Shown: piece by piece, positions 5,041 to 30,958 of the stretch | Position numbering within the stretch: position 1 is the first letter of the stretch | Layout of the letters: each line of letters begins with the position of its first letter | DNA from: Bacillota bacterium | GTDB lineage: Bacteria; Bacillota; Dehalobacteriia; UBA4068; UBA4997 | Direction of reading: 5' to 3' | Length of the DNA stretch: 45,831 bases | NCBI GenBank assembly: GCA_021769035.1 | Contig: JAETTP010000015.1 | Span: 1-45,831 of the forward strand | The notes under the pieces: model-generated | What the model saw: the letters and a program-made list of their open reading frames with translations, nothing else | What the model was told of the DNA's origin: nothing | Databases searched by the model: none | Position numbers and translations under genes: made by a program

Positions 5041-5080
5041 AACAAAGCCGCTCCATTTGGAAAGCGGCTTTGTTATTATT
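5041..5080. terminator. Second, near-perfect hairpin terminator
   Basis: AACAAAGCCGCT and AGCGGCTTTGTT form a 12-bp stem followed by ATTATT. It lies 10 bp after the first terminator and can act from both strands. It fully separates the nadE unit from the next operon. Confidence 0.75.
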
Positions 5081-5144
5081 GCTTTTTTGGCCGTTATCTG
5101 TTAAACTATAAGTAAATATTTTAATAGGGAAGGTGATGGTGACG

Positions 5145-7640: not shown

Positions 7641-7672
7641 TTGGATATTGAGATTGGAATGGAGTGATAGTA

Positions 7673-15126: not shown

Positions 15127-15161
15127 ATGTCCTGGAATGTCCGCCTAAATAATGCTAAAAT
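15127..15161 (+). promoter_or_regulatory. Special promoter element upstream of terS (copy 1)
   Basis: ATGTCCTGGAATGTCCG (15127-15143) contains TGTCC twice, exactly 10 bp apart, and TAAAAT follows (15156-15161), 13 bp after the second TGTCC. No sigma-A -35 box is present at the right place. The same 17 bp, the same spacing and the same -10 box recur at 16839-16873. This fits a dedicated activator or alternative sigma factor, as PBSX uses for its late operon. Confidence 0.75.
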
Positions 15162-15198
15162 ATTAACATCAAAAAATATCAAAAAAGGAGGGGTTGCT

Positions 15199-15447
15199 TT
15201 GGCGGAAAAGGGCCGGCGGGCAGTGGCCTGCAAAACGGAGATTATGCAGTTTTTGACGGAGGTGATGCGCGGCGAGGTGGCGGACGGCGCTGGAGCCAAG
15301 GAGCCGCAGCCGCCCAAGGTGAGCGAACGCACCAAAGCGGCGGAGCTTTTGGGCAAAAGCCAGCATATTTTTGGCGATAAAGCGGCGAAAGATAAGACGG
15401 CGGATAAGTTGCTTGAGGTGCGCATTTGGGGCGAGGAGGATTTGTGA
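15199..15447 (+). CDS. Phage terminase small subunit
   Basis: An 82-residue protein starting at TTG 5 bp after GGAGGGG. The frame is open upstream without a ribosome site. It carries the end pattern of small terminases (RTKAAELLGKSQHIF), and its stop overlaps the terL start region. It lacks the N-terminal helix-turn-helix of full-length relatives such as XtmA, so DNA recognition may be relaxed, as would suit non-specific packaging. Identified mainly from the C-terminal motif and its position before terL. Confidence 0.7.
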   Translation: MAEKGRRAVACKTEIMQFLTEVMRGEVADGAGAKEPQPPKVSERTKAAELLGKSQHIFGDKAAKDKTADKLLEVRIWGEEDL

Positions 15448-15449
15448 TA

Positions 15450-16682
15450 ATGGAGGAGATTTATTTGCCGGCGGTGGTGGGCGGTGGCTATGGCGATTTT
15501 TGGCATTTTAAGGGGCGGTATCGCGTGGTGAAGGGCAGCCGGGCTTCTAAGAAGTCTAAGACGGCGGCCCTGAATTTTATTTGGCGCTTGGTGCAGCTGC
15601 CGGAAACTAATTTGCTGGTGGTGCGCAAGACTTATCGCTCCTTGCGTGATTCCTGCTATGCGGAATTGTGTTGGGCTATTAATCGGTTGGGTTTGACGGC
15701 GGCCTGGCAATGCCGGGAGGAGCCTTTGGAGTTGACCTATCTGCCGACGGGGCAGAAAATTTTTTTCCGGGGCTTGGACGACCCGCAGAAGATTACCTCC
15801 ATTGTGGCGCGCGTGGGTAGCATTTGCTTTTTGTGGCTGGAGGAAGCCTTTGAGGTGAACCGGGAGGAGGATTTTGCCATTTTAGATGAGAGTATCCGCG
15901 GGGAGGCCCCTTTTAAGCAGCTGACGTTGACTTTTAACCCTTGGAATGAGCGGCACTGGCTGAAAAAACGTTTTTTTGACTGCGGGCCTGACCCGGAGAT
16001 TTTGGCTAAGACGGTGGATTATCGCTGCAATGAGTTTTTGGACGCGGCCGATTTGCAGCTGTTTGCCAATATGGCCCGGCAGAACCCCAGGCGTTATCGG
16101 GTGGCGGGCCTGGGCGAATGGGGCGTGAGCGAGGGGCTGATTTTTGAGAACTGGCGCGAGGCCGATTTTGACTGGCGGGAGCTGGCGGCTCGGCCGGGCG
16201 TGCGGCCGGTTTTCGGCCTGGATTTTGGCTATGTGAACGACGAAACGGCCTTGTTCTGCGGCCTGGCGGAGGCGGCGGAGCGGCGGCTTTACGTTTTTGA
16301 TGAGATTTATCAGCGGGGCATGAGCAATGAGCAGATTTTTGCCGAAATTAACCGGCGGGGTTACGCTAAGGAAAGTATTCGGGCGGACAGCGCCGAGCCT
16401 AAAAGCATTGACCGCCTGTGGGAGCTGGGCCTGCGGCGGATTAAGCCGGCCCGCAAGGGCCCGGACAGCGTGCGGCACGGGATTGACTTTTTGCAGGACT
16501 TTGAAATTGTGGTGGCCCCGCGTTGCCGCAGCTTTTTGGCGGAGATTGCCGCCTACTGCTGGCAGGTTGACAAGGAGGGGCGCATGTTGAATGTGCCGGT
16601 GGATAGGAATAACCACCTGATGGACGCGATGCGGTATGCAATTGAGGAAATTGCTTCGGGAGAAACGTTTAGTTTTGAATGA
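15450..16682 (+). CDS. Phage terminase large subunit
   Basis: A 410-residue DNA-packaging motor of the PBSX XtmB/terminase_3 type. The ATPase half has a phosphate-binding loop KGSRASKKSKTAA near the N-terminus and a Walker B region ICFLWLEEAFEV. The nuclease half shows the RNase H-like acidic residues in FGLDFGYVNDETAL, IRADSAEPKS and NHLMDAMRYAI. All key acidic residues are present, so the enzyme should be active. ATG chosen 10 bp after GAGGAGG; a GTG at 15444 is possible. A palindromic repeat follows. Confidence 0.9.
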   Translation: MEEIYLPAVVGGGYGDFWHFKGRYRVVKGSRASKKSKTAALNFIWRLVQLPETNLLVVRKTYRSLRDSCYAELCWAINRLGLTAAWQCREEPLELTYLPTGQKIFFRGLDDPQKITSIVARVGSICFLWLEEAFEVNREEDFAILDESIRGEAPFKQLTLTFNPWNERHWLKKRFFDCGPDPEILAKTVDYRCNEFLDAADLQLFANMARQNPRRYRVAGLGEWGVSEGLIFENWREADFDWRELAARPGVRPVFGLDFGYVNDETALFCGLAEAAERRLYVFDEIYQRGMSNEQIFAEINRRGYAKESIRADSAEPKSIDRLWELGLRRIKPARKGPDSVRHGIDFLQDFEIVVAPRCRSFLAEIAAYCWQVDKEGRMLNVPVDRNNHLMDAMRYAIEEIASGETFSFE

Positions 16683-16803
16683 CAAAAGCCCACTAGCACC
16701 TCATCTGCTTTGTCATCAGCTTATGCGCCTCGTCAACGTACTTCAGTACACCTCCTCGGCTTATAAGTTGATTCCGCGCATTTGAGGCACTATTGAGCTT
16801 TTG
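16683..16803. repeat. Large nested palindrome, MITE- or terminator-like
   Basis: Outer arms CAAAAGC (16683-16689) and GCTTTTG (16797-16803), then CCTCA/TGAGG, TGCG/CGCA, TCAAC/GTTGA and a tip GTAC-TTCA-GTAC fold into one long stem. TTTTTTG follows, so it can end the terS-terL transcript. The whole is about 120 bp with no ORF, resembling dispersed palindromic repeats or a small non-autonomous element. Confidence 0.6.
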
Positions 16804-16838
16804 TTTTTTGGTAAAAAATTTTAGGCCGAACCGCAAAC

Positions 16839-16873
16839 ATGTCCTGGAATGTCCGATTATACCGTGTTAAAAT
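16839..16873 (+). promoter_or_regulatory. Special promoter element upstream of portal gene (copy 2)
   Basis: ATGTCCTGGAATGTCCG (16839-16855) and TAAAAT (16868-16873) repeat the element at 15127-15161. Spacing to the start codon is also nearly the same, at 44 versus 43 bp from the -10 box. Confidence 0.75.
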
Positions 16874-16911
16874 GGTAGCATAGAAAAAGATGAATTACGG
16901 AGGAATTACAA

Positions 16912-18474
16912 ATGAAGAGTTTGACAGACGTTTGCCGCAGGCTGAGTGAGGCCGGCGGTTTTTTGACTGAAAGGAATATAAAAGCGGCGTTCCCTTTGGA
17001 AAACGCCGCTTTTATTATGCCTGAAAGACCGCTGGAGGGGGATTTGGATTTGCAGTTTTTGAGCTGGGAGCTGGGCTGCTGGCTGGATAGCCCGAAGCGG
17101 CGTTGGATGGAAACCGGCGAGGCCTACTTTGCCGGACGGCAGGATATTTTGCAGCAGCAGCGGCAGATTTTGGGCCGGGACGGTCAGCTGGAGGCGGTGC
17201 ATAATTTGCCGAATAACCGGCTGGTGAATAATCAATATGCTAAGCTGGTTAATCAGAAAACTAACTACCTGCTGGGCCAGCCCCTGACCTGGGAATGCGA
17301 CCGGCCGGAATATGCCGCGGCCTTGGGGCGGGTGTTTGACCGGCCTTTTATGCGGCTTTTGAAGCGGCTGGGTAAGGATTGCTACAATCAGGGGATTGCT
17401 TGGCTTTATCCTTATGTGGGAGCGGACGGGCGTTTACATTTTGCCCGCTTTGGCGGCCGGGAGATTTTGCCCTTTTGGGCGGACGCGGAGCATACCCGCC
17501 TGGAGGCGGCCCTGCGGCTTTTCAGCCGGCAGCTTTGGCGCAAAGGCCGCTTGCAGACGGTTTGGGGCGCGGAGCTGTTTGGCCCGGACGGGCGGCAGCT
17601 TTTTGGCTGGGACCCGGCCAAGGGCCGCCTGACCCCTTGGGCCTGGCCGGCGGCGGGCGAGAGCGGCGCGCGCTGCGCCTACCTGAGCCGGCAGCCGCAA
17701 GGAGCAGACGGTGGCCGGCAGGCCTTTAACTGGCAGCGCGTGCCTTTGGTGGCTTTTAAGCTTAACGAGCGGGAGCAACCCCTGATTTGCCGGGTGAAAG
17801 GCTTGCAGGACGCTTTGAACACAATGCTTTCCGGCTTTGAGAATGTGTTGCAGGAGGATGCGCGCAATTCTATTTTGGTGATTAAGAATTACGACGGCAC
17901 GGATTTGGCGGAGTTTCGGCATAATTTGGCGGCCTTTGGGGCGGTGAAGGTGAAAACCGTGGACGGCGCGGAGGGCGGCATTGACACCCTGAGCGTGCAG
18001 GTGGACGCCGGCAACTATCAGGCTATTTTGGAATTGTTGCAGCGGGCGATTATTGAAAATGGCTTGGGCTTTGATTCTAAGCTTGAGCACTCCTATCGGG
18101 CGGCCAATGAATTGAATATTAAATCTATGTACAGCGATATTTGCCTGGACGCTAACGACTTGGAAACGGAATGGCAGGCGGCGTTGCATGATTTGCTCTG
18201 GTTTGTGAACAGCTATCTGGCTTTCAGCGGGCAGGGCGATTTTTTTGACTGCGGCTGCCGTTTTATCTTTAATCGTGATATTACGCTGGACGAGAGCGAG
18301 GCCATTGACAACTGCCTGAAATCCTTGGGGCTGTTATCGCGCCGCTCCGTTGTGGCCCAGCACCCTTGGGTGGACGATGTGGAAAAGGAGCTGGAGCGAA
18401 TGGCGGAGGAGGAGGTTGCGTTTGCGGACAAGGCGACGGATAGGGCAACAGGTAAGGCCGCGGATAAGGGGTGA
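16912..18474 (+). CDS. Phage portal protein, SPP1 gp6-like
   Basis: A 520-residue portal that forms the dodecameric DNA channel at one capsid vertex. Family landmarks are YFAGRQDIL (about residue 74), NRLVNNQYAKLVNQKTNYLLGQ, GFENVLQEDARNSILVIKNYDG and the C-terminal FNRDITLDESEAI with a charged tail. The ATG at 16912 follows CGGAGGAATTAC. An in-frame ATG at 17017, after a terminator-like hairpin, would remove 35 residues not usual for the family. The gene starts its own transcription unit. The Mu F-like minor head protein that normally follows a portal is absent. Confidence 0.88.
   Translation: MKSLTDVCRRLSEAGGFLTERNIKAAFPLENAAFIMPERPLEGDLDLQFLSWELGCWLDSPKRRWMETGEAYFAGRQDILQQQRQILGRDGQLEAVHNLPNNRLVNNQYAKLVNQKTNYLLGQPLTWECDRPEYAAALGRVFDRPFMRLLKRLGKDCYNQGIAWLYPYVGADGRLHFARFGGREILPFWADAEHTRLEAALRLFSRQLWRKGRLQTVWGAELFGPDGRQLFGWDPAKGRLTPWAWPAAGESGARCAYLSRQPQGADGGRQAFNWQRVPLVAFKLNEREQPLICRVKGLQDALNTMLSGFENVLQEDARNSILVIKNYDGTDLAEFRHNLAAFGAVKVKTVDGAEGGIDTLSVQVDAGNYQAILELLQRAIIENGLGFDSKLEHSYRAANELNIKSMYSDICLDANDLETEWQAALHDLLWFVNSYLAFSGQGDFFDCGCRFIFNRDITLDESEAIDNCLKSLGLLSRRSVVAQHPWVDDVEKELERMAEEEVAFADKATDRATGKAADKG
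16978..17018 (+). other. Terminator-like hairpin inside the portal gene
   Basis: AAAAGCGGCGTT (16980-16991) and AACGCCGCTTTT (17002-17013) form a perfect 12-bp stem with a 10-nt loop, followed by ATTAT. It encodes residues 23-34 of the portal frame. Transcription from the upstream element must pass through it. Translation from 16912 would melt it, so it may act as an attenuator. Confidence 0.5.
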
Positions 18475-18479
18475 GTTTG

Positions 18480-19427
18480 GTGCAGCTGGATTTGCTGATT
18501 TGGGACGGCCGGCAGTGGTTGCAGCCGGCCTGGCTGGCCGGAGCGCGTTTGCAGCGGACGGCTAATGCCGCGGCGGTTTTGGATTTTTGCGTGGTTAAAA
18601 ACGGCCTGCTGAATTTTTTGGAGGGCGCGCCGGTCTATCTGCTGGCGGATGGCAAGCCGGTTTTTAAGGGCCGGGTTTTTGCTAAGCGGCGCAGGCAGCC
18701 GGAATTGATTTCGGTGCGGGCTTATGACCAGCTGCGTTTTTTGCAGAACCGTGACTGTTGCAGTTTTCGGGATTTTACGCCGGCTGATTTGCTGAAGCGG
18801 GTGTGTGCGGAAAACGGCTTGCAGGTTGGCCGGCTGGCCGACTGCGGCCTGCGCCTGCCCGCCCGCAGCTTTGATAACCGACGCTACTTGGATATGCTGG
18901 CGGCCGTTTTGCAGGAGGTGTATCTGGCCAAGGGCCGCCGCTATTTTGTCTATGATGAGGCCGGAGCGATTTGCCTGCAAAGCTGCTGGGATTTGCGAGT
19001 GAATATTTTGCTGACGGAGAACTGCCTGGGCGGTTGGGAATATGCGACCTCGATTGACGAGGGCGTTTGCAATCGGGTTAAGGTGATTTACGAGGACAAG
19101 CGCAAGGGCGAGCGGCGGCAGTTTGTGGCGGAGAATGCGGAGCGGATTGCCGACTGGGGTCCTTTGCAGCGGGTGAGCAAGAGCGCGGACGCGCAGGAGC
19201 AGACCCAGGCCAAGGCGCGGGAGCTTTTGCAGCAGGGCTGCCGGCGGCAGGAAAATTTGCTGGTGCGGGACGCGCCGGGCGATTTGCGGGTGCGCGGCGG
19301 CAGCATGGTTGGCGTGCGGCTTAATCTGGGCGAGCAGCTGGTGGATTGCTGGGCCTTGGTTAAGCGGGCGGAGCATAGGTTTGTGGACGGAAATATTTTA
19401 ATGGATTTGAGCTTAGAAGTGCAATAG
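18480..19427 (+). CDS. Phage baseplate hub protein, XkdQ/gpD-like
   Basis: A 315-residue protein of the XkdQ/YqbQ and late-control-D type. An N-terminal beta domain (GAPVYLLADGKPVFKGRVF) is followed by the hub fold (SVRAYDQLRFLQ, LLKRVCAENG, NRRYLDMLAAVLQE) and a long C-terminal region ending LVKRAEHRF. It forms the centre of the baseplate at the tube tip. GTG at 18480 is preferred since AAGGGGTGA provides the ribosome site; GTG at 18471 overlaps it. In PBSX this gene follows xkdP, but here it directly follows the portal gene. Confidence 0.8.
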   Translation: MQLDLLIWDGRQWLQPAWLAGARLQRTANAAAVLDFCVVKNGLLNFLEGAPVYLLADGKPVFKGRVFAKRRRQPELISVRAYDQLRFLQNRDCCSFRDFTPADLLKRVCAENGLQVGRLADCGLRLPARSFDNRRYLDMLAAVLQEVYLAKGRRYFVYDEAGAICLQSCWDLRVNILLTENCLGGWEYATSIDEGVCNRVKVIYEDKRKGERRQFVAENAERIADWGPLQRVSKSADAQEQTQAKARELLQQGCRRQENLLVRDAPGDLRVRGGSMVGVRLNLGEQLVDCWALVKRAEHRFVDGNILMDLSLEVQ

Positions 19428-19491
19428 CGGCTCATCTGAACTGATTTGGTTGGATTGTTCATATATTTTGTATGGAGGAGATGATAGGGGA

Positions 19492-19938
19492 ATGTATCAT
19501 TATTTTATTGGGGATATGGAGCTGCCGCTGGCGCCGGAAAAATATACCCTGCGCTTGCCGCCGGCAAATCAGACTGTGCGCCTGGCCGACGGGCGGGAGC
19601 TGAACCTGCTGCGGCCGCTGGGGCTGCGGGAAATCAGCTTTGAGCTGCTGCTGCCCTACTTTGAGGACAGCCCGCTGTTGCGGGACGGGGTGGCGGTGCA
19701 TAAGCCGATTTACTATCTGAACCGGCTGGCCGAATGGGCCGAGAGCGGCGAGCCGCGACGCTTGATTATTTACCGCTCCTTGCCGAGCGGCGAGGAAATT
19801 TTTAATACCAGCCTGCTGGTGAGCCTGGAGGAATATCAGGTTTTGGAGGCGGCCGACCTGGGTTTTGATGTGCGCGTGAGCCTGCGCCTGAAGGAATATC
19901 AGGAAAAAATTTGCCAGAAATATGTGGGCAGCCTGTGA
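19492..19938 (+). CDS. Phage tail protein, XkdP-like without LysM
   Basis: A 148-residue protein beginning MYHYFIGDMELPLAPEKYTL. The LPLAPEKYTL...NLLRPLGLREISFELLLPY pattern is that of the baseplate/tail-tip proteins related to XkdP. The C-terminal LysM domain of XkdP is missing. GGAGGAG lies 11 bp before the ATG. It would join hub and tube in a contractile tail. The order hub, then this gene, is reversed relative to PBSX. Confidence 0.65.
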   Translation: MYHYFIGDMELPLAPEKYTLRLPPANQTVRLADGRELNLLRPLGLREISFELLLPYFEDSPLLRDGVAVHKPIYYLNRLAEWAESGEPRRLIIYRSLPSGEEIFNTSLLVSLEEYQVLEAADLGFDVRVSLRLKEYQEKICQKYVGSL

Positions 19939-19965
19939 GGGCGGTTGAGAAAGGAGGCGCTGGAA

Positions 19966-20328
19966 TTGCAAACAGCGATGTTGGCGGAGGCCATTGCCAG
20001 CCTGGCGAAGCGGACGGCGGACAGCGAGGCGGCGGTGAATTTTGCTTTCGGCAAGGTTATGCAGGAATATCCTTTGCAGGTTATGCTGGAGCAACGCCTG
20101 CTTTTGCAGGAGGAGCAGCTGATTTTGACCGAAAATGTGATTGGCGCGGCCAGCCTGCGCACGGACAAGGAAATTTATATCCGGGAAAAGATTTACGACG
20201 TTTTTCATAATCTGGAGGCCGGTGACCGGGTGCTGCTGGCTAATGTGCAGGGCGGACAAAGCTGGGTGATTTTAAGCAAATATTATGCTACGGAGCTGGA
20301 CGAGCTTTTGGAGCAGAATGGTGGATAA
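19966..20328 (+). CDS. Phage tail protein, XkdR/DUF2577-like
   Basis: A 120-residue protein with a helical N-terminal half (LAEAIASLAKRTADSEAAV) and a C-terminal beta segment LEAGDRVLLANVQGGQSWVI. That resembles the OB-like core of DUF2577 proteins, baseplate parts next to the hub. TTG start at 19966 chosen because AAAGGAGG lies 8 bp upstream; the in-frame TTG at 19945 has none. The family call rests on one motif and on position. Confidence 0.5.
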   Translation: MQTAMLAEAIASLAKRTADSEAAVNFAFGKVMQEYPLQVMLEQRLLLQEEQLILTENVIGAASLRTDKEIYIREKIYDVFHNLEAGDRVLLANVQGGQSWVILSKYYATELDELLEQNGG

Positions 20329-20358
20329 AACAAAGTGGTTGAGGAGGTGCGGCCTTTT

Positions 20359-21357
20359 ATGGATTGGCAGGACGCGGAATGGCAGGATTTTTGGACGGAG
20401 TGGCGGCGTTGGCTGGCCTGGGAAAGCGAATGGCGGGTGGCGGAGCAGCAACAGGCCGAGCAACTGGGTTTGCTGCCGGCAATGCCGGTAAATCCGGCGC
20501 AGTTGGCGCAAGCGGCTGGGTTGACGGAGGGGGCCGGGTTGGAAGCGGCGGATTGGCGTTTGCTTTTGGGCGGCGGGCGGGCGGAGGCTTTTGGGCGGCA
20601 AGAGTTTGTTGGGCGGAGCCGGGAGGCGCGCCGGTCAGCGTTGAGCCGCCAAAGCAGCAAACGGTTGGCGGGGTTGACCGGGCCGGCGGTGTTTGATAAA
20701 GCGGCGGCCTATACGGCAGCGGGGAGAGAGGTGGGAGGGTTGGCCGGGCAGACGATAGCGCGGCCGCTGGAGAAAACTAACAAAATCAGGAATTGGCGCC
20801 CTGAGCCGCAAAGCCGGGCCGGCAAGCGGACGACGGAGAGGGCGGAAGCGGCTGGAGCAGTGGGCGAAACACTGACGGCGGAACAAGAGGCGGCAGCGGA
20901 GCAAGAGCCAGCGGCAGTAGGGCAAAAGCCCCTGCGGGTGAATTTGCGCAGCCGTTTGGCGGACAAAGTGGACAAGCCGGAAATCGCCGAGATTGCTTGG
21001 CCCGAAATGCCGAAAATGCCGGATTTGGCGGAAGTGCAAAGTATCGAAATTGCGGAAGCCTATAAAACGGCTGAAATGGCTGCCGGCGATAATCGGTTGC
21101 CCGAATGGCCGGAGGCCGAGTTGGCAGGAGAGGGTGGCGCTTTGAGTTTGACGGTACGGGAAAGTGAAAATGAAGCGCAGACTGCGTTGGCTGATTTGGC
21201 CAGGCGGCCGGAAAAGCCCCGCAAAGCGGAGGAAGCCGGGCGGGCGGATCTGTTTGCGCCGCAGGGCGGCGTCGATGTGGGCGCGGTGGCGGAGGCCGTG
21301 GCGGAAATCCTCTGTGCGGAGATTGAGGCGCAGTTGGGAAGCGTTTCTTTTGTGTGA
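20359..21357 (+). CDS. Phage-cluster protein of unknown function, Ala/Glu-rich
   Basis: A 332-residue protein with a tryptophan-rich start (MDWQDAEWQDFWTEWRRW) and a long low-complexity body rich in Ala, Glu, Arg and Pro. I see no known domain. ATG chosen 9 bp after GAGGAGGTG. It lies directly before the tail chaperone gene. In PBSX the tape measure lies on the other side of the chaperone, and no long tape measure exists in this cluster. This could be a short replacement, but it has no clear transmembrane or coiled-coil pattern. Confidence 0.6.
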   Translation: MDWQDAEWQDFWTEWRRWLAWESEWRVAEQQQAEQLGLLPAMPVNPAQLAQAAGLTEGAGLEAADWRLLLGGGRAEAFGRQEFVGRSREARRSALSRQSSKRLAGLTGPAVFDKAAAYTAAGREVGGLAGQTIARPLEKTNKIRNWRPEPQSRAGKRTTERAEAAGAVGETLTAEQEAAAEQEPAAVGQKPLRVNLRSRLADKVDKPEIAEIAWPEMPKMPDLAEVQSIEIAEAYKTAEMAAGDNRLPEWPEAELAGEGGALSLTVRESENEAQTALADLARRPEKPRKAEEAGRADLFAPQGGVDVGAVAEAVAEILCAEIEAQLGSVSFV

Positions 21358-21396
21358 AGTTTTAGGGCGAAAGAATTTAAGCGGGAGGTGAATTTG

Positions 21397-21789
21397 ATGG
21401 ACGGAAAATTGCGGGCCTTTTTGGCGGAGGGGGCCAAACGGGAGCATGTGCGGGTGGCCCTCTCCGACCGGTTTGTGGACGAGGCGGGGCAGCCGCAGCT
21501 TTGGGAGCTGGCCCCGCTTTGCGCAGAGGACGTGCAGCGGCTGTTGAGCGAGCCGGGAGCGGAAAGCGGCCGGCCGGGCCGGCTGCTGTTGCAGCTTTTG
21601 GCGGCCAGCGTGGTTTGGCCGGATTTGCAGGAGGCGGAATTGCAGGACAGTTGGGGCGCTTTGGGTGCGGAACAGCTGCTTTTGCGTATGCTCTCCCCGG
21701 GGGAGTTTGCGGCCTTGCAGCGGGCCTTTGTGGAGCTGAATTTGCAGGGGCGCAGCTTGAGCGAGCAGGTGGCGCAGGCAAAAAACTGA
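21397..21789 (+). CDS. Phage tail assembly chaperone, XkdN-like (frame 0 product)
   Basis: A 130-residue protein with the XkdN pattern: LRAFLAEGAKREHVRVALSD, then RFVDEAGQPQLWELAPL and EDVQRLL. It acts as the short form (gpG-like) chaperone that coats the tape measure during tail assembly. GGGAGGTG lies before the ATG; the GTG at 21388 is part of that ribosome site. Its last codons GCA-AAA-AAC-TGA contain a slippery heptamer leading to the extended product. Confidence 0.8.
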   Translation: MDGKLRAFLAEGAKREHVRVALSDRFVDEAGQPQLWELAPLCAEDVQRLLSEPGAESGRPGRLLLQLLAASVVWPDLQEAELQDSWGALGAEQLLLRMLSPGEFAALQRAFVELNLQGRSLSEQVAQAKN

Positions 21790-21820
21790 TTGCGGCCGGT
21801 GATTGGGAGGCGGCGGCCGC
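21780..21820 (+). promoter_or_regulatory. Programmed -1 ribosomal frameshift site
   Basis: The heptamer A-AAA-AAC (21780-21786) is correctly phased for the zero frame (GCA AAA AAC) and followed at once by TGA. Five nt later a stem GCGGCCG (21792-21798) / CGGCCGC (21814-21820) can stall the ribosome. Slippage leads into the downstream frame. Confidence 0.85.
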
Positions 21821-21947
21821 GGTGGCGGCTTTGCTGCGCTGGGGCTGGCGGCCGGCGGACTTTTTGCAGCTGCCGGAGCCGGAAAGAGCCTTGGTGATTG
21901 CCGGCCTGCAATGGGAAATGGCTGTTTTGCGGAAAGGAGGTGATTGA
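21786..21947 (+). CDS. C-terminal extension of tail chaperone made by -1 frameshift (gpGT-like)
   Basis: After slippage translation continues LIAAGDWEAAAAVAALLRWG for 53 codons to TGA at 21945-21947. The fusion product, starting at 21397, is about 183 residues. This frame has no ribosome site of its own near its beginning. A G/GT pair made by frameshifting is conserved in long-tailed phages, where the T part contacts the tail tube protein. Confidence 0.8.
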   Translation: MIAAGDWEAAAAVAALLRWGWRPADFLQLPEPERALVIAGLQWEMAVLRKGGD

Positions 21948-21995
21948 GAACCTTTTAAGATAGGGAGGTTTGGCGGAAAGGAGGTGTTTGAGAAA

Positions 21996-22448
21996 ATGAA
22001 AGAGGTGTTGCAAAAGCTGTTTGGCGATGTGGTGACGGAGGAGAATTTGCTGGAATTTGGCCGGCTTTTTGTCAGCCGGGCGGCTTTTGAGCGTTTGCAG
22101 CGGGAAACGGCGGCCGACCGCTTGCTTTTGCAGGCCGGAGCGAAGAACCTGACCGCGGCCAAGGCCCTGTTGGCTTGGCAGGAGATTGATTTGCAGGCGC
22201 AGGATTGGCAGGAGGGCCTGGCGGAGCAGGTGCGGGCCTTGCAGAAGGAGCCGGAAACGGCTTTTTTGTTTGCCAGAGAGTTTGACGGGCAGGACTGCGG
22301 CTGGCTGGGCCTGGCCCCGGCGGCGGCAAACGGCCCCCTGGAGGAAGCGGCGGCGGGTGCGGATTGGCGGCTGGCGCAGGCGGAGGGAGATAGTTTGACA
22401 TCTATCCGCTTGAAGCAGCGGGCTGCCAGAGAGCATAACTTGCTTTGA
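21996..22448 (+). CDS. Phage scaffolding protein, GP20-like
   Basis: A 150-residue, highly charged helical protein starting MKEVLQKLFGDVVTEENL, with coiled-coil-like heptads (FERLQRETAADRLLLQAGA, ALLAWQEIDLQAQDW). It has the layout of minor structural protein GP20, which acts as internal scaffold during procapsid assembly. It sits directly upstream of the capsid gene as expected. ATG at 21996 lies 8 bp after AAAGGAGGTG. Confidence 0.75.
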   Translation: MKEVLQKLFGDVVTEENLLEFGRLFVSRAAFERLQRETAADRLLLQAGAKNLTAAKALLAWQEIDLQAQDWQEGLAEQVRALQKEPETAFLFAREFDGQDCGWLGLAPAAANGPLEEAAAGADWRLAQAEGDSLTSIRLKQRAAREHNLL

Positions 22449-22528
22449 TAGAATGACTGATTAAGGCGGCGGGCGGGTTGGGGCGAGTACATTTTATTAT
22501 ATCTAAATATGAAAGGATTGATTGCATA

Positions 22529-23584: not shown

Positions 23585-24099
23585 TGTTGGCGGAGCTGCG
23601 GGAACGGCTGCTGGGCTTGGGCTATCAGTTTGCGGTCAGAGAGGCTGCTGAGGCTGGCGATATTGGCGAGGATAGCGATGCGGGCGAAAAATCCGGGGCT
23701 GCTGAAACGGCGCAGGCCGAGGAGTGCGCTTTGCACCTGGCCCTGCGCCGGGCTTTGAGCTATGCCCAGAATATTTGCAGCCTGCCGGAATTGCCGGAGC
23801 AAGCCGGGGAGGCTGGCGAGGAAGTGCGCTGGCCGACCGCCTGGCCGACGCTTTTGCGAGAGCCGGTTTTGGATTTGGCGGCGGCCTACTTTTTGCAGGC
23901 GCGTTTGGCCCTGCGCCCGGAGGAACTGGCGGTGATGCCGGTGGTGACCTCCCTGCGCCTGGGCGACGCGGCCCTGGGCTTTGCCGGCGGCAGCCAGAAA
24001 ACCGGCACCGACGCTTTGAGCCGGGCGGAAAGCTTGTGTAACTATCTGTTGCAGACGGCGTGGAGCGCCTTTTGCGGTTGGCGAGGGATTTTATGGTGA
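23584..24099 (+). CDS. Phage head-tail connector protein
   Basis: A 171-residue protein placed directly after the capsid gene, overlapping its stop (TGATG). It has an all-helical pattern (LALRRALSYAQNICSLPELP, EPVLDLAAAYFLQ, SRAESLCNYLLQTA) of gp6/YqbG-like adaptors that join portal and tail. An acidic, low-complexity insert (about 20-45) is unusual. Family call by position and helix pattern. Confidence 0.65.
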   Translation: MLAELRERLLGLGYQFAVREAAEAGDIGEDSDAGEKSGAAETAQAEECALHLALRRALSYAQNICSLPELPEQAGEAGEEVRWPTAWPTLLREPVLDLAAAYFLQARLALRPEELAVMPVVTSLRLGDAALGFAGGSQKTGTDALSRAESLCNYLLQTAWSAFCGWRGILW

Positions 24100-24488
24100 G
24101 CAAAATGAATAATACTTTTTACGCTGCGGCGGGGCGGCAGCTGGCCCGGCTGTTTGACGGCCGCTGCCGGGTTTATCGCTTGGCGGTGCGCCGGCTGGGG
24201 CCGGACGGGCCTTGCGTTGGCGACGCCTGGCAGGAGGCGGCGGGCGAGGTCTGGCCGTGCCATTTGGCGTTTTTGCAGCAGCCGCCGGCGGAATCTGCGA
24301 CGGACGGCTGCCCGGTGGAGGCCCGCTGCCGCTTGTTTTGGCCGCGGGATTTGCCGGGGCTTTCGCCCGGCAGCCGCTTGCAGGTGGAGCAGCAGGGACA
24401 GGTTTTTGAACTGGTTTGCAGCGGTTTTCCGGTTGCTTACCCGACGCATTGGGAGGCGGAGCTGCGTTTGCTGCCGGAGGGAGCTTGA
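24093..24488 (+). CDS. Phage head-closure/minor structural protein
   Basis: A 131-residue beta-rich protein (CRVYRLAVRRLGPD, VEARCRLFWPRDLPGLSPGS, LQVEQQGQVFELVC) in the slot where PBSX-like phages encode the head-closure or stopper protein. ATG at 24093 overlaps the previous stop; 24105 is an alternative. Identity is mainly from position and length. Confidence 0.55.
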   Translation: MVSKMNNTFYAAAGRQLARLFDGRCRVYRLAVRRLGPDGPCVGDAWQEAAGEVWPCHLAFLQQPPAESATDGCPVEARCRLFWPRDLPGLSPGSRLQVEQQGQVFELVCSGFPVAYPTHWEAELRLLPEGA

Positions 24489-24509
24489 GGCGGAGAAAGG
24501 AGGAGGCTT

Positions 24510-25031
24510 TTGCGGGATTTTTTGCAGGCTTTGGCTAAGAGGCTGAGCCAGCTTTTTGAAGAGCAGTGGCCGGTCTATCTGGGCCGGCTTTGGCAGGGCG
24601 AAAAAACGCCCTGCTTTTATCTGCCGCCGCCGGAATTGCAGCGGCGGCTTTTGCCCTGCGGCCGGGTGCGCCGGGAGATTGCTTTGGAGCTGCATTTTTA
24701 CGCGGGTAAGCTGCCTAAGCTGGGAGAGAGCGGCGAGCCGAGCCAAAACGGCGAATTGGTGCTAAGCCGGGAGCAGGTGGCGGAGAAGCTGCTGCGGGGC
24801 TTGGCGGCCTTTGCCGGCGGGCAGCGGGCTTATCGCGGCTGGGATTTGCGCTGTGATGTGGCCGGCGGCGCTGCGAACCAGCCGGGCCGGGAATATTTGC
24901 GGCTGCGGGGGCGTTATGTGTTTTATACCACGATGGAGCTGGAGGCGGCCGACGGCCTGAGCGATTGGCCTGAGGCGGCGGAATTGATGAGCTATTTCAA
25001 TATTAATACTGAAGTGAAAGAGGAGGAATGA
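24510..25031 (+). CDS. Phage tail terminator/completion protein
   Basis: A 173-residue protein starting at TTG, with AAAGGAGGAGG just upstream. An alpha/beta pattern (FLQALAKRLSQLFEEQWPVY, PCFYLPPPELQRRLLP, REIALELHFYAG, REYLRLRGRYVFYTT) matches the family that caps the tail tube next to the sheath gene in PBSX-like clusters (DUF6838-like). Its stop overlaps an ATG, but the sheath gene is better started at 25034. Confidence 0.6.
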   Translation: MRDFLQALAKRLSQLFEEQWPVYLGRLWQGEKTPCFYLPPPELQRRLLPCGRVRREIALELHFYAGKLPKLGESGEPSQNGELVLSREQVAEKLLRGLAAFAGGQRAYRGWDLRCDVAGGAANQPGREYLRLRGRYVFYTTMELEAADGLSDWPEAAELMSYFNINTEVKEEE

Positions 25032-25033
25032 CA

Positions 25034-26416
25034 ATGGCGTTTGGTGGAGGCAGTTTTGTGACGCAGAATAAAATTCTGCCGGGGGTTTACGTGAATGTGA
25101 ACCAGCAGAGCAAGGTGGGCTCCGCCCTCTCCGACCGAGGGGTGGCCGCCTTGGGTTTGGAATTGGACTGGGGCCCGGACGGCGAGCTGTTTTATCTGGA
25201 GGCGAGCGAGTTCCGCAGCCGGGCGCAGATCCTGTTTGGTTACGCTTACGGCGACCGGCATTTGCAGGGCCTGCGCGATTTGTTTCTGCATGCAGCGGGC
25301 TGCTATTTTTACCGTTTGAACAGCGGGGAGCGGGCGGCTTGCAGCCTGGCGGAGGCCCGCTTTAGCGGCGTGCGCGGCAACGCCCTGCTGGTTACGGTGG
25401 AGGCGGCCGAGAACAGAGAGGTTGGCGAAAGCGAGGCTGGCGAAAATGAGAGCGGTGTGGTTGTCGCGTCTGGCGAATCCGGCAATACGGAGGCGGCGAC
25501 GCAGTTTGTGGTGACTTCTTGGCTGGACGGGCAGGAGGTTGACCGACAACAGGTGAAAAGCGCGGCTGAATTGCTGGATAACGATTATATCTGTTGGAAA
25601 GGCGGGGCGACGTTGCAGGCGGGATATTTGTCTTTTAGCGGCGGCTCCAATAAAGCTAAGGTGGGCGCGGAGGATTATCAAAAGCTGTTGGAGGCCTTGG
25701 GCGAATGCGAATTTAATGCTTTGGGCTGCCTGAGCTGCGAGCTGGCCGTGCAGAATTTGTTTGTGCAATATACCAGAGAGCAGCGGGAGGACAACGGCCG
25801 CAAGTTTCAGACCGTGCTTTACAACTGCGCGGCCAACTACGAGGGGGTTATTAACCTGGGCAGCAAGGCCTTGGCCGAGGATTTGCCGGAAAGCGGCCTG
25901 GTTTTTTGGCTGCTGGGCGCAGAAGCCGGCTGCGCGGTGAATGCGACGCTGACCAATGCGGTTTACGATGGGGAAATTAAGGCCGAGGCCACCGCCAGCC
26001 AGCGCGATTTGCAGCAGGCTTTGCTGGAGGGCAGCCTGGTTTTGCACCGCCTGAACGGCGAGCTGCGCGTTTTGGAGGACGTGAACTCCTTGCAGAATTG
26101 GCAGGAGGGCGGCTTGGAGGACCGCCGTTTTAATCAAACGGTGCGCGTGCTGGACCAGATTGTTTTGGATTTGGCCGCTTTGTTTTATCAACGTTACTTG
26201 GGGATTGTGCCTAATGATAATGCTGGGCGAATCAGCCTGTGGAGCGACGTGGTGGCTTACTATCGCAAGCTGGAGGGCTTGCGGGCCATTGAAAGCTTTG
26301 ACCCGGCTGACGTCACGGTGGCCCAGGGCGAAAACAAAAAGGCCGTGGTGATTTCCTCGTATTTGAACGTGACCAATGCGATGTCGCAGTTATATTTGAC
26401 GGTGACCTTTAATTAA
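25034..26416 (+). CDS. Contractile tail sheath protein, XkdK-like
   Basis: A 460-residue sheath subunit. The typical start MAFGGGSFVTQNKILPGVYV and the C-terminal fold FNQTVRVLDQIVLDLAALFY ... VISSYLNVTNAMSQLYLTVTF are both present. A Glu/Ser-rich insert at about 130-160 (ENREVGESEAGENESGVVV) is longer than in usual relatives and probably lies on the surface. ATG at 25034 is 7 bp after AGGAGG. It shows that the particle has a myovirus-type contractile tail. Confidence 0.9.
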   Translation: MAFGGGSFVTQNKILPGVYVNVNQQSKVGSALSDRGVAALGLELDWGPDGELFYLEASEFRSRAQILFGYAYGDRHLQGLRDLFLHAAGCYFYRLNSGERAACSLAEARFSGVRGNALLVTVEAAENREVGESEAGENESGVVVASGESGNTEAATQFVVTSWLDGQEVDRQQVKSAAELLDNDYICWKGGATLQAGYLSFSGGSNKAKVGAEDYQKLLEALGECEFNALGCLSCELAVQNLFVQYTREQREDNGRKFQTVLYNCAANYEGVINLGSKALAEDLPESGLVFWLLGAEAGCAVNATLTNAVYDGEIKAEATASQRDLQQALLEGSLVLHRLNGELRVLEDVNSLQNWQEGGLEDRRFNQTVRVLDQIVLDLAALFYQRYLGIVPNDNAGRISLWSDVVAYYRKLEGLRAIESFDPADVTVAQGENKKAVVISSYLNVTNAMSQLYLTVTFN

Positions 26417-26428
26417 GGAGGGGTGAAA

Positions 26429-26896
26429 ATGGGAGTGACTATGAACGCCTGGGACGCGCTCTCCGCCGGGTTGGCAGAGTGCTATGTGACGATTGACGGC
26501 CGACGTTATCGCTTTATGCAGGCGATTAATCTGGAGGCCAGCATTGAAAAGAAAAAAATGCAGGTGCCGGTGCTGGGCCGCATGGGCCGCGGCAACAAGG
26601 GCGTGGGCTGGAGCGGCAGCGGCAAGGCGACTTTCCACTATAACAGTAGCTTGTTTCGGGAACTGTTATACCGCTTTAAGGAAAGCGGCGAGGATATGTA
26701 CTTTGATATTCAGATCACTAATGAGGACCCGGTGAGCAGCGTGGGCCGCCAGACCGTGATTTTGAAGGATTGCAACCTGGACGGCGGCGTGCTGGCGAAA
26801 TTCAGCGCGGAGGACGAATATTTGGAGGAAGAGCTGCGCTTTACCTTTGAGGATTTTGAAATCCCTGAAAAGTTTAGCGAGCTGGTGGGTATGTGA
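26429..26896 (+). CDS. Tail tube protein, XkdM-like
   Basis: A 155-residue tube subunit: AWDALSAGLAECYVTIDGRR, then the conserved KKKMQVPVLGRMGRGNKGVG and GKATFHYNSSLFRELLY. It stacks in hexamers inside the sheath. Length and motifs are standard. ATG at 26429 follows AAGGAGGGG. A GC hairpin CCCGGCC-GGAGA-GGCCGGG lies right after its stop and may stabilise or separate the mRNA. Confidence 0.9.
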   Translation: MGVTMNAWDALSAGLAECYVTIDGRRYRFMQAINLEASIEKKKMQVPVLGRMGRGNKGVGWSGSGKATFHYNSSLFRELLYRFKESGEDMYFDIQITNEDPVSSVGRQTVILKDCNLDGGVLAKFSAEDEYLEEELRFTFEDFEIPEKFSELVGM

Positions 26897-26900
26897 AAAG

Positions 26901-26919
26901 GCCCGGCCGGAGAGGCCGG
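26901..26919 (+). other. Strong intercistronic hairpin after tube gene
   Basis: A 7-bp GC-only stem, CCCGGCC and GGCCGGG, with a 5-nt loop and no U-run. It could set a 3' mRNA end for the highly expressed sheath-tube message or dampen baseplate expression. Confidence 0.45.
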
Positions 26920-26941
26920 GAAAACTGCGAGGTGATTTGAT

Positions 26942-27328
26942 TTGGCGGAGCTGAAAACGGTGCAGGAGGCGCGAACCTGGGCTTTGAACGATTTGGACGG
27001 CGAGGCTGGCGGGGCTGGCAGTTTTTTGCAGGGCAGCTGCGAGGGCTTGGCGGCCCTGCGACAGGCCGTGTTTTTGCTTTTGCAGACGGAGCGCGGCCGC
27101 TGGCCGGTTTTTTCCGCCGGGTTTGGCGTTGACCTGCTGGGGCTGGTGGGACAACCGGCGGCTTATGTTATCCCGGAGGCGGAGCGGCGTTTGCGCGAGG
27201 CCCTTTTGCAGGACGACCGGGTGCTGGCCGTGGAGGAATTCCGCTTTGCCCAGCAGGGCCGCAGACTGGCGGTTAGCTTTTTGGTGCGCAGCGTTTACGG
27301 CGATTTGCAGGCGGAGGTGGAGATATAA
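26942..27328 (+). CDS. Baseplate wedge protein, XkdS/DUF2634-like
   Basis: A 128-residue protein with the gp25-like wedge fold: ALRQAVFLLLQTERGRWPVF, then FGVDLLGLVGQ and ERRLREALLQDDRVLAVEEF. It starts at TTG, 8 bp after GAGGTGAT. In PBSX this gene is separated from the tube gene by xkdN to xkdR; here it follows the tube gene directly. Confidence 0.8.
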   Translation: MAELKTVQEARTWALNDLDGEAGGAGSFLQGSCEGLAALRQAVFLLLQTERGRWPVFSAGFGVDLLGLVGQPAAYVIPEAERRLREALLQDDRVLAVEEFRFAQQGRRLAVSFLVRSVYGDLQAEVEI

Positions 27329-27346
27329 AGGGGGCGAACTTAAAGA

Positions 27347-28420
27347 ATGTACGAAAATATGACGTATGAGAATATATTGGCTGGCATGCTGGAGCGAGTG
27401 CCCAGCCCGGTGGACAAGCGAGAGGGCGCTTTGCTTTGGGACGCTTTGGCCCCGGCGGCCTTTGAACTGGCCCGGCTTTACGAGGCTTTGGAGCTGGTTT
27501 TGCAGGAGGGTTTTGCGGACACGGCCTCCCGCGCCTACTTGATTTTGCGGGCCCGGGAACGGGGGCTTAGCCCCCGGCCGGCCAGCCCGGCCACGGCCCT
27601 GGGCCTGATTGAGGCGCAAACGGAGGTGGCCCTGGGCAGCCGTTTTTGCTGTGAGCGTTTTAACTGGCGCGTGACCCGCAGCCTGGGCGAGAACCTTTTT
27701 GAACTGGAATGTGAAGAGGCGGGCAGCGAGCCCAATGCTTATCTGGGGCGCATGGTGCCGCTGGAATATCTGAATGGTTTGAATAAGGCGGAGTTGCAGC
27801 GGCTGATTGTGCCGGGCCAGGACGAGGAGAGCACGGAGGACTTCCGGGCCCGGTACTTGCGGGATTTGGTGGAGCAGCGTTTTGGCGGCAACGTGGCGGA
27901 TTACGTGGCTAAGGCGGAAAGCATTGCCGGCGTGGGCGCGGCCAAGGTGCAGGCGGCCTGGAACGGCGGTGGCACGGTGCGCCTGCTTTTGCTGGACGAA
28001 AGCTTGGGCGTGCCGGAGGCGGCTTTGGTGGAGAGAGTGCAGCAGCTTTTTGACCCCACGGGCTTGGCGGCCGGCCAGGGCGCCGGTTTGGGACTGGCCC
28101 CGATTGGTCATGTGGTGACGGTGGCGGCGGCGGAGGCCAGGGTGGTGAACGTGGCTTTGCAGCTGACCCTGCGCGAGGGCTGGCAGGCAGCCGATGTGGT
28201 TGCCGCCGTGCGCGGCTGCGTGGAGGGCTATCTGGCGGATTTGCGGGCGGAATGGGCTGCAGCCGAGCATTTAACGGTGCGCGTCAGCCAGTTGGAGGCG
28301 CGCATTTTGCAGGTGCCGGGGGTTTTGGACGTGAGCGACCTGACGCTGGCCGGCGCGGCCGCTAATTTGCAGCTGGGCGAGGTGGAAATTCCGGTGAGGG
28401 GGCAGGTAGATGTCCGATAG
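27347..28420 (+). CDS. Baseplate J-like protein, XkdT
   Basis: A 357-residue baseplate protein. N-terminal YENILAGMLERVPSPVDKRE, middle LILRARERGLSPRPASPATA, then DEESTEDFRARYLRDLVEQRFGG; all are hallmarks of the baseplate J family. It links wedges around the hub. The end overlaps the next gene by 11 bp. Ribosome-site spacing at the ATG is long, so the exact start is not certain. Confidence 0.88.
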   Translation: MYENMTYENILAGMLERVPSPVDKREGALLWDALAPAAFELARLYEALELVLQEGFADTASRAYLILRARERGLSPRPASPATALGLIEAQTEVALGSRFCCERFNWRVTRSLGENLFELECEEAGSEPNAYLGRMVPLEYLNGLNKAELQRLIVPGQDEESTEDFRARYLRDLVEQRFGGNVADYVAKAESIAGVGAAKVQAAWNGGGTVRLLLLDESLGVPEAALVERVQQLFDPTGLAAGQGAGLGLAPIGHVVTVAAAEARVVNVALQLTLREGWQAADVVAAVRGCVEGYLADLRAEWAAAEHLTVRVSQLEARILQVPGVLDVSDLTLAGAAANLQLGEVEIPVRGQVDVR

Positions 28421-29027
28421 GCTTGTGGAAGCATATAATGCTAATGAAAACGGAAGCAGTGGGCCGGCGGAAAGCTTTGCCGCAAATGCCGGCGTGCTGG
28501 CGGGATATCTGCCGGATTTTCTGGTTAATATTCGGGATCTGGGGCAGGTTTTGCAGGTGGAGCAGCCTTATTTTCAGCAGGCTTGGCAGGCGGTGGGGCA
28601 GGCCTTGGCGGAGCAGTATATTTTGGGGGCCGGCGAGTGGGGCCTGGGACGCTGGGAGCAGCTTTTGCATTTGGAGGCCCCGGAAAGCCTGAGCCTGGAC
28701 GAGCGGCGGCAGGCCTTGCTTTTGCGCCTGAATGAACAGCTGCCCTTTACTGTGATCCGCTTGCGGGAGCTTTTGGCGGCGGCTGCGCCGGCCGGGCAAT
28801 ATACTATGGTTTTGGACGAAAAGAATTATGTGCTGCATGTTTATATTACGCTGGCGGCCAAAGGCTGCCTGCCGGCTTTGCGCGCGCTTTTGCAGCGGGT
28901 GGCCCCGGCCAACCTGAGCTTGCATTTGCAGCTTATGTTTAATACGCACGGCAAGCTGGCGAAATTTACGCATCAGCAGCTGAGCCAATGGAGCTGCTGG
29001 GCGATTAGAGAGGAGGTTTTGGACTGA
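28410..29027 (+). CDS. Phage tail protein, XkdU/YmfQ-like
   Basis: A 205-residue protein of the DUF2313 (YmfQ) type, the link between baseplate and tail fibre. Characteristic runs are LAGYLPDFLVNIRDLGQVLQ, YILGAGEWGLGRWEQLL, LDERRQALLLRLNEQLPFT and the C-terminal beta segment. It overlaps XkdT and its stop overlaps the next ATG, so the three are translationally coupled. Confidence 0.8.
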   Translation: MSDRLVEAYNANENGSSGPAESFAANAGVLAGYLPDFLVNIRDLGQVLQVEQPYFQQAWQAVGQALAEQYILGAGEWGLGRWEQLLHLEAPESLSLDERRQALLLRLNEQLPFTVIRLRELLAAAAPAGQYTMVLDEKNYVLHVYITLAAKGCLPALRALLQRVAPANLSLHLQLMFNTHGKLAKFTHQQLSQWSCWAIREEVLD

Positions 29028-30091
29028 TGGCGACATATACGACGAATTATCAGCTGAAAAAGCCGAGTGCGGCGGATTACTACAATATTAAGGATTTTAA
29101 TGACAACGCCGACTTGATTGACAGCAAGCTGAAGCTGGGCGAGGACGCTAAAGGCCTGGCGGAAAGCTTGCAGACCGCGCAGCAGACTATGCAGACGACG
29201 GTTAATGGGCTGGTTTTGAAAGCGGTGATTTCCGTGGTGATTTGGGCGCCCCCGAACACGCAGGTGGTTTTGCAGCAGATTGGCGGCAACGGCGCTTTTT
29301 CCGGCATGGTGGGCAGTTCTATGGAGTTGCAGGCTGCTTTGGGCGCTTTGGGCAAATGGCGCGTTACCTATGTTTACGCCGGCAAAAGCTACAATAAGGA
29401 ATTTTTGGTGGAGCATATTGGCCAGACCATTGTGGTGGCCGCGCCGACGCTGGCGGCTGCGCCCTGGGCTTACATCGCTAAGCTGGCGGAGGCCGGCCGG
29501 GCCCGCGAGGCTTTTATGCTGGGCGACAGCAAAAGCGTGAGCAGCAACCTGGGCAACTACGACGTGCAGATTATCGGCTTTGGGCAGGATTATCTGGCGA
29601 CGCCGACTGTGGGGAACGAAACCGCCGGGCTGACCTTGCAGATGAAGAGCAGCACGCCGCATAATTACGCTTTTGACCCCAGCAGCACCTTTGACGGCGG
29701 TTGGGCTAACTGCCTGTTGCGGAGCACTACCCTGCCGGCGGTGCTTGGCAGCCTGCCAAGTGATTTGCAGACCGTGCTGAAGCCGGTGCGCAAATATACC
29801 AGCAACAGCGACAGCGGCGCGGGCCAGACCACCACCGATAAGCTGTTTTTGCTCTCCGAATATGAGCTTTACGGCGCTTGTGCGCTCTCCAATCCACAGC
29901 ACTACAATGTGTTTTACGAATATTATCAGGCGGGGCATGCGGCCAACAAAAATTACAGCTACTGGCTGCGCAGTCGGGTGAAGGGCGCAGGCAACGAGGC
30001 CTATCCGGTGGTGGCGGTGACGGGTTACTTGCAACCCTCCTCCTATCGTGCGGACAGTAAATATGGCTTGTGCTTTGCTTTTTGTGTGTGA
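29027..30091 (+). CDS. Tail fibre/receptor-binding protein with a C-terminal DUF6273-like lectin fold
   Basis: A 354-residue protein. The first 60 residues (TTNYQLKKPSAADYYNIKDF) are the usual tail-fibre attachment start. The C-terminal 180 residues hold the DUF6273-type pattern (KLFLLSEYELYG, NYSYWLRSRVKG, and a final GLCFAFCV). That C-type-lectin-like fold is often used for ligand binding and sometimes varied by diversity-generating retroelements. No reverse transcriptase or template repeat is visible in the window. AGAGGAGG precedes the ATG. It would determine which cells the particle binds. Confidence 0.75.
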   Translation: MATYTTNYQLKKPSAADYYNIKDFNDNADLIDSKLKLGEDAKGLAESLQTAQQTMQTTVNGLVLKAVISVVIWAPPNTQVVLQQIGGNGAFSGMVGSSMELQAALGALGKWRVTYVYAGKSYNKEFLVEHIGQTIVVAAPTLAAAPWAYIAKLAEAGRAREAFMLGDSKSVSSNLGNYDVQIIGFGQDYLATPTVGNETAGLTLQMKSSTPHNYAFDPSSTFDGGWANCLLRSTTLPAVLGSLPSDLQTVLKPVRKYTSNSDSGAGQTTTDKLFLLSEYELYGACALSNPQHYNVFYEYYQAGHAANKNYSYWLRSRVKGAGNEAYPVVAVTGYLQPSSYRADSKYGLCFAFCV

Positions 30092-30127
30092 TTTATTTAG
30101 TTTTGACTTGATAGGGAGGAATGAGGA

Positions 30128-30340
30128 TTGACAATTTTGCAGAGATTGGCCCGCTTGTTGGACGTGAAAAGTCTGGTGACGCTGGCTTTGGTGTTGGTTT
30201 TGTGTGTGATGACCCTGAGCGGCCGCGAGGTGAGCGAGCTTTTTGGCAGCGCGGTGATGTTGGTTTTGGGCTTCTTCTTCGGCAAGAATGTGCGCACGGA
30301 GGGGGAGCGCACCGACGAGAATAATCTGGGAGGAAAATAA
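30128..30340 (+). CDS. Small holin-like membrane protein
   Basis: A 70-residue protein starting at TTG, 8 bp after GGGAGG. Two hydrophobic stretches (LVTLALVLVLCVMTL and LFGSAVMLVLGFFFG) are followed by a charged tail, the form of small holins that release endolysin. The next gene, a cell-wall hydrolase, begins right after its stop, supporting a lysis cassette. Confidence 0.7.
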   Translation: MTILQRLARLLDVKSLVTLALVLVLCVMTLSGREVSELFGSAVMLVLGFFFGKNVRTEGERTDENNLGGK

Positions 30341-30958
30341 ATGCAATATCCATTTAAAAAGTTCCGCTTGGGCACTCGTTATGGCACGGTGGGCCGGCTT
30401 TGGCAGGCCGGCTGGCACAGCGGACAGGATTTTATCTCCACTGCGGCGGGCGGCGACGGTTTGGTTTATCCGCTTTACGCCGGGCAGGTGCAAAAGGTGG
30501 GCCGCGGCGGCGCTTATGGCAACTGCGTTTACGTTAAGCATGCGGACGGCTACCTAACGCTTTACGCCCACCTGCGCACGGTTTACGTGCGGGCGGGCCA
30601 GAAGGTGAACGAGGACGCCGTTTTGGGCGTGGAGGGTGCGACCGGCAATGTGACTGGCCGCCACCTGCACCTGGAGGTGCACAAGGGTGAATATCGTTAT
30701 CCGGCGGGGATTGACCCTTTGCAGTTTTTGCGCGAGGGGATTGCCGCCGAAAAAGAAAGAGAGGAGGCGACAGAGGTGGAAAAGCAGATTAAGCTGCGTT
30801 TGAACGGTGTGGAAAAAACTGTGGCCGCCATTGAAAAGGACGGACATAATTACGTGCGTTTGCAGGATTTGCGCGACGCGCAAATTGGCGTGGATTACGA
30901 CGCGGCGGCCGGCTTGCCGGTGATTACAGCTTTGGCCAAAGAATCGAAAAAAATTTGA
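30341..30958 (+). CDS. M23 peptidase endolysin with a copper-amine-oxidase-like C-terminal domain
   Basis: A 205-residue murein endopeptidase. The zinc site is seen as HSGQD (about 26-30) and HLHLEV (about 108-113), and a YGNCVYVKHADG strand fits LytM-type enzymes. Residues about 145-205 (LRLNGVEKTVAAI, GHNYVRLQDLRDA, VDYDAAAGLPVI) form a short copper-amine-oxidase-N-like domain, probably a wall-binding module. It has no signal peptide, as expected when a holin gives access. This is the last gene of the phage-like cluster. Confidence 0.82.
   Translation: MQYPFKKFRLGTRYGTVGRLWQAGWHSGQDFISTAAGGDGLVYPLYAGQVQKVGRGGAYGNCVYVKHADGYLTLYAHLRTVYVRAGQKVNEDAVLGVEGATGNVTGRHLHLEVHKGEYRYPAGIDPLQFLREGIAAEKEREEATEVEKQIKLRLNGVEKTVAAIEKDGHNYVRLQDLRDAQIGVDYDAAAGLPVITALAKESKKI

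Follow-up and report, generated by a model that had tools for sequence, protein, structure and literature searches.

A vertically inherited contractile particle cluster in a genus of uncultured gut bacteria is a probable gene transfer agent

What a compact set of phage-type genes does in a bacterial chromosome is the question raised by contig JAETTP010000015.1 of assembly GCA_021769035.1, whose 45,831 analysed nucleotides are referred to as the window. Positions 15128-30958 hold a full compact contractile particle set, recognised by profile matches or by position, in a single operon-like block on the + strand. The host is an uncultured Clostridia-type gut bacterium of a Candidatus Avidehalobacter-like genus, and the same capsid is found in records named Candidatus Avidehalobacter gallistercoris and in Peptococcaceae metagenome-assembled genomes. 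A preliminary description had proposed a candidate gene transfer agent (GTA) or a domesticated PBSX-like element. Domestication is now backed by the distribution, descent and selection described below; transfer we infer, with PBSX-like killing as its rival. The evidence strongly supports a DNA-packaging particle that has been domesticated and is inherited vertically; gene transfer is a likelier purpose for it than killing, and the cluster is probably a domesticated, vertically inherited contractile phage working as a GTA.

The comparison covered nine species of the genus (G000 to G008, G000 being the window genome) and six outgroup genomes of the family and order. The capsid gene is single copy in eight of the nine species, with 75-100% identity, and in these eight the cluster is colinear and always adjoins DUF5665-lspA-rluD. 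In the window species and six relatives it continues into DUF5665-lspA-rluD-rarA on one contig; the first genes through part of terL lie on a second contig in G002, and in G003 the cluster is spread over two contigs with the lspA junction present. G005 was rejected as a true absence, as it lacks rluD together with TerL, capsid and baseplate J, and the uninformative locus is probably unassembled. All six outgroups have DUF5665-like-lspA-rluD with the element site empty, preceded in most by pyrB- and ileS-like genes (both named by eye from sequence). The capsid was not found in other genera of the class among 43 genomes, and elsewhere in the phylum it occurred in one distant genome among 398. 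Conservation of the position between cotF/serC and lspA had been named as a sign of domestication; it holds on the lspA side throughout, but the left neighbours cotF, serC and serA are shared with the closest species alone. In G003 the left flank upstream of terL (L030 reversed, about 690-870) is unlike that of other species and by eye resembles a signal recognition particle RNA gene (GTCAGGGTCGGAAGGCAGCAGC).

Trees of concatenated proteins from the eight species gave the same topology for element and flanks, with support of 0.97-1.0. Between G000 and G006 the synonymous divergence (dS) of element genes, the tape measure aside, is 0.31-0.93 and spans that of the flanking genes (0.34-0.55), and the ratio of nonsynonymous to synonymous divergence (dN/dS) is 0.01-0.34 with the exception of the tape-measure open reading frame (ORF) at 0.51. 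The closer pair G001 and G007 agrees, and the more distant pair G000 and G001 reaches up to 0.5 in the chaperone. TerL, portal, capsid and scaffold are all conserved under purifying selection, and the checked structural ORFs are open, the few flagged stops lying outside genes at alignment ends. The check named beforehand, a conserved site with purifying selection across relatives, was thus passed. The frameshift signal GCA AAA AAC TGA in the chaperone gene is invariant in all eight species, and its persistence despite a chaperone protein that is only 50-57% identical in distant species argues that assembled tails, not single proteins alone, are under selection. The GC-rich codon style noted earlier is likewise that of the surroundings, since GC content and GC content at third codon positions (0.58 to 0.76 across species) match the flanks species by species. 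Elevated GC and carbon-cheap proteins, considered as a GTA signature, were not seen, the element being equal to its flanks and its proteins no cheaper.

Profile searches and position recovered every particle module that had been listed within about 16 kb, at its place, and added a tape measure (20335-21357, 340 residues) that the list did not name. The right border is corrected to lie ahead of DUF5665 (31002) and lspA. The features, all on the + strand, are as follows.

15128..15161, +, promoter 1, TGTCCTGGAATGTCCG with -10 box TAAAAT (15156), upstream of terS; identical 16-mer upstream of portal, variants at both sites in relatives
15199..15447, +, TerS (small terminase), 82 residues, without N-terminal helix-turn-helix; Terminase_2 positions 52-138 of 141 only, full domain in G002, G004 and G008
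15450..16682, +, TerL (large terminase); Terminase_3 5.8e-50, Terminase_3C 1.1e-24
16840..16873, +, promoter 2, same motif TGTCCTGGAATGTCCG with -10 box TAAAAT (16868), upstream of portal
16912..18474, +, portal; SPP1_portal 7.8e-64
18471..19427, +, baseplate hub, XkdQ-like; YQBQ 5.1e-69
19450..19938, +, XkdP-like protein; phrog_380 2.5e-23 and gene order
19945..20328, +, XkdR-like protein; DUF2577 3e-16
20335..21357, +, short tape measure protein, 340 residues; adjoins chaperone, similar length in eight species, C-terminal motif as in phage tape measures, no profile match
21388..21947, +, XkdN-type tail chaperone, -1 frameshift at A AAA AAC (21780) into the 21501-21947 frame; Phage_TAC_5 1e-17
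21984..22448, +, scaffold; Phage_scaffold 7.7e-07, under the Pfam cut-off
22529..23584, +, major capsid protein; SU10_MCP 1.7e-60
23584..24099, +, head-tail connector candidate 1; by position, no profile match
24060..24488, +, head-tail adaptor; phrog_615 1.5e-05
24510..25031, +, tail terminator; Phage_tail_terminator_8 2.8e-04
25028..26416, +, tail sheath; Phage_sheath_1 1.3e-22, phrog_279 1.2e-92
26423..26896, +, tail tube; DUF2001 1.1e-47
26942..27328, +, sheath initiator, gp25/XkdS-like; Sheath_initiator 3.6e-20
27347..28420, +, baseplate J, XkdT-like; Baseplate_J 3.7e-45
28410..29027, +, baseplate gp48, XkdU-like; Phage_Mu_Gp48 1.4e-22
29027..30091, +, tail fibre or receptor-binding candidate; DUF6273 6.1e-09, structure model matches tail-collar fibre protein
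30128..30340, +, holin candidate, small hydrophobic protein 5' of endolysin; no profile match
30341..30958, +, endolysin, M23 peptidase; Peptidase_M23 2.2e-20

The cluster is followed on its 3' side by DUF5665, lspA, rluD and rarA. Profile searches saw no integrase or replication genes in the cluster or the flanks checked, and no att-like direct repeat framing the cluster was found, the clearest long repeat in the listed families being the doubled promoter; the early claim that these functions and repeats are lacking is thereby upheld. The fibre model resembles tail-collar fibres, its top matches among solved structures spanning just short beta-domains. A 58-nucleotide palindromic repeat (16959-17016, AAAAGCGGCGTT...AACGCCGCTTTT) forms an in-frame part of portal in G000 and G006 and is absent from that of G001; about a dozen more copies occur in the genome, one of them between genes on prophage contig C79, where its stem covaries. 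The intergenic region between terL and portal (16684-16803) carries an inverted repeat conserved in G000 and G006 and not in other species. Further to the left, between nadE and serA, an array of apparently paralogous secreted proteins occupies 3746-8917 and 10820-11683, the first with a copper amine oxidase N-terminal domain.

The missing helix-turn-helix of TerS, already remarked upon in the preliminary description, proved to be real and lineage-specific. Its start codon, TTG at 15199, lies 37 bases past the end of the -10 box, so that no helix-turn-helix is hidden upstream and a start-site error is not at issue. Only the C-terminal part of TerS is present in four species (the window species, G006, G001 and G007), while a longer TerS with an N-terminal helix-turn-helix region occurs in G004, G002 and G008, profile-confirmed for G002. 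In G003, a single draft genome in which terS may lie elsewhere, terL comes straight after the promoter, and the gap holds no TerS ORF. TerS thus varies within one genus, being full, without helix-turn-helix, or missing beside terL, and this series in close relatives constitutes a natural experiment on the loss of packaging specificity. Absence of the domain is a proposed trait of GTA small terminases (PMC6854486), and those of RcGTA (PMC6854486) and FpGTA (PMC12946183) are reported to lack it.

The 16-mer TGTCCTGGAATGTCCG, with a -10 box 12 bases downstream, stands upstream of both terS and portal, and variants occupy these sites in relatives, including upstream of terL in G003. A strict pattern of this promoter gave 15 matches in the nine genomes and none in a reversed control. 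Ten matches lie at the element, and the other five fall in replication and sheath regions of contigs that carry prophage genes, showing that the promoter type is common to local prophages. Unlinked to the cluster, all nine genomes carry a divergent pair encoding a helix-turn-helix-Peptidase S24 protein of LexA/CI type and a sigma-70 region 4 protein that weakly resembles RinA/ArpU; this pair is a candidate switch for the cluster promoters. In the window genome it lies at 1784-3019 of contig C58 (L263), the sigma-like protein at 2612-3019, with a strong promoter and GTTAC/GTAAC-like repeats between the genes. The pair is reminiscent of PBSX, in which the late genes are driven by Xpf, a sigma-like factor (PMC8347963). 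The XRE genes at 10101 and 36862 were rejected as regulators within the window, the latter being in no relative region tested and the former in G006 only.

Tail length was approached through the ORF at 20335-21357. An ORF of 286-340 residues occupies the equivalent position in all eight species; its body is unalignable, and the C-terminal 25 or so residues align (in an alignment made without the G008 ORF). A D-x-D motif followed by a helix at this end is similar in the tape measures of phage-relative contigs (696-911 residues) and in two other compact cluster types (278-299 residues), and a 374-residue version is found on an uncultured contig whose capsid is 86% identical. The family profile gave no match, and the structure model is weak in the middle (mean predicted local distance difference test score 50) with confident helices just near the ends. 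Position and the short C-terminal motif, shared with phage tape measures, make its assignment as tape measure well supported. At 0.15 nm per residue the tail would measure about 45-50 nm.

Viewed together, phage-derived structural and packaging genes lie in the host chromosome, descend vertically under purifying selection and are accompanied by no integration, excision or replication functions of their own in the cluster, the flanks checked or framing repeats. If the particle is a GTA, a stress or DNA-damage signal, perhaps via the host-encoded S24 repressor/sigma-like pair, would turn on both promoters, and TerS and TerL without a specific DNA-binding domain would load small heads with random host DNA. 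The filled heads would then receive short contractile tails, the holin and M23 endolysin would lyse the producer cell, and the tail would pass the DNA to relatives. A ComEC domain is present in eight of the nine genomes and is common anyway. Several points weigh against a GTA: the particle, the packaged DNA and the transfer are all unobserved for the genus; the promoter motif also occurs in prophages; nothing directly ties the regulator pair to the promoters, and its sigma-like member has homologues in outgroups lacking the element; and three species keep a full TerS, so that loss of specificity is not universal.

The explanation that survives best beside gene transfer, and is nevertheless unlikely, is a domesticated PBSX-like killing particle that packages random host DNA, delivers none and kills related strains with its contractile tail. 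The tail indeed has PBSX-type proteins, and PBSX and a Bacillus pumilus relative package 13 and 9 kb of host DNA, respectively, and are bactericidal (PMC8347963). Yet the fibre is vertically inherited under purifying selection (dN/dS 0.11-0.23) and does not appear to be fast-changing, as a strain-killing device might be, and a particle serving purely to kill would gain little from a capsid, a terminase and the reduction of TerS. An ordinary or decaying prophage or satellite, with integrase and replication genes elsewhere or supplied by resident prophages with its promoter motif, is very improbable. Prophages of the same genome do share this motif and have related tail proteins, but a single chromosomal site in eight species, congruent trees, dS equal to that of the flanks, intact ORFs and the lack of att repeats and mobility genes strongly disfavour it. 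Least probable of all is a contractile particle kept for host lysis or toxin delivery with no functional DNA packaging, since the holin and endolysin and an unobserved particle function would permit it but TerL, portal, capsid and scaffold are conserved under purifying selection and the cluster holds no effector gene.

Clusters of similar build occur outside the genus. On IMG/VR contigs L117-L119 (capsid 66% identical) the same protein families make up a cluster of about 12-13 kb, and the genes at its borders, one of SLH/PGA_cap type and one for a ricin-type lectin, look cellular. L158, L162, L163 and L164 have a different arrangement and tape measures of 278-299 residues, L162 being bordered by a CAAX-protease-like gene. 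The capsid tree places both types close to the Avidehalobacter clade and separates them from phages with long tape measures; support is moderate, and a siphovirus-like contig branches at the base. One clade of all short-tape-measure clusters is not claimed, as support is 88-93% and the siphovirus-like L144 belongs to the wider group. These two types may represent additional GTA-like elements, which perhaps arose independently. Together with L153 and L182 they are compact contractile clusters with very short tape measures on contigs labelled viral, which suggests that some such IMG/VR contigs may be chromosomal. We tentatively raise the possibility of an undescribed family of short-tailed contractile GTAs in several uncultured lineages, hidden in viral databases, which in Candidatus Avidehalobacter would be genus-wide, with a host-encoded LexA-like/sigma-like switch and a TerS losing its DNA-binding domain by lineage. 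A contractile, genus-wide and vertically inherited GTA would show that a whole clade can retain a tail-contracting particle to serve its own ends, and the cluster supplies loci to seek in faecal particle sequencing.

Compared with known systems, the cluster shares with PBSX and PBSX-like elements a contractile tail, genes of XkdN/P/Q/R/K/M/S/T/U type and a host-chromosomal location; PBSX itself packages random host DNA (13 kb in the literature). The gene order with a long tape measure is however not that of PBSX: the block of hub, XkdP, XkdR, tape measure and chaperone lies between portal and scaffold, the tape measure has about 300 residues against 1423 in the B. pumilus PBSX-like region (PMC8347963), and the cluster spans 16 kb against about 33 kb. 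The capsid is of SU10 type, TerS is reduced, and the candidate repressor and sigma-like factor lie outside the cluster. Two contigs of this genome that carry ordinary PBSX-like prophages (C65 and C45) have the order sheath-tube-chaperone-tape measure-P-Q-R, relative to which the cluster is rearranged. Uncultured contractile phage contigs L160, L171, L173 and L151 have about 60-67% identical capsids and the same capsid, portal, sheath, tube and baseplate families, but show the canonical order with tape measures of 704-911 residues, L160, L171 and L173 on contigs of 40-44 kb. The alphaproteobacterial RcGTA (Rhodogtaviriformidae), compared by description, has no contractile sheath, whereas sheath and baseplate J are present here. 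FpGTA of Faecalibacterium likewise belongs to a Gram-positive gut anaerobe, is near-ubiquitous in its genus and has a TerS without obvious DNA-binding domain (PMC12946183); it has two loci and is of podovirus-like form, its heads measuring 40 nm, while the present system is contractile with one locus. According to a 2026 gut study, PBSX and FpGTA are the only known GTA-type systems of Gram-positive bacteria (PMC12946183).

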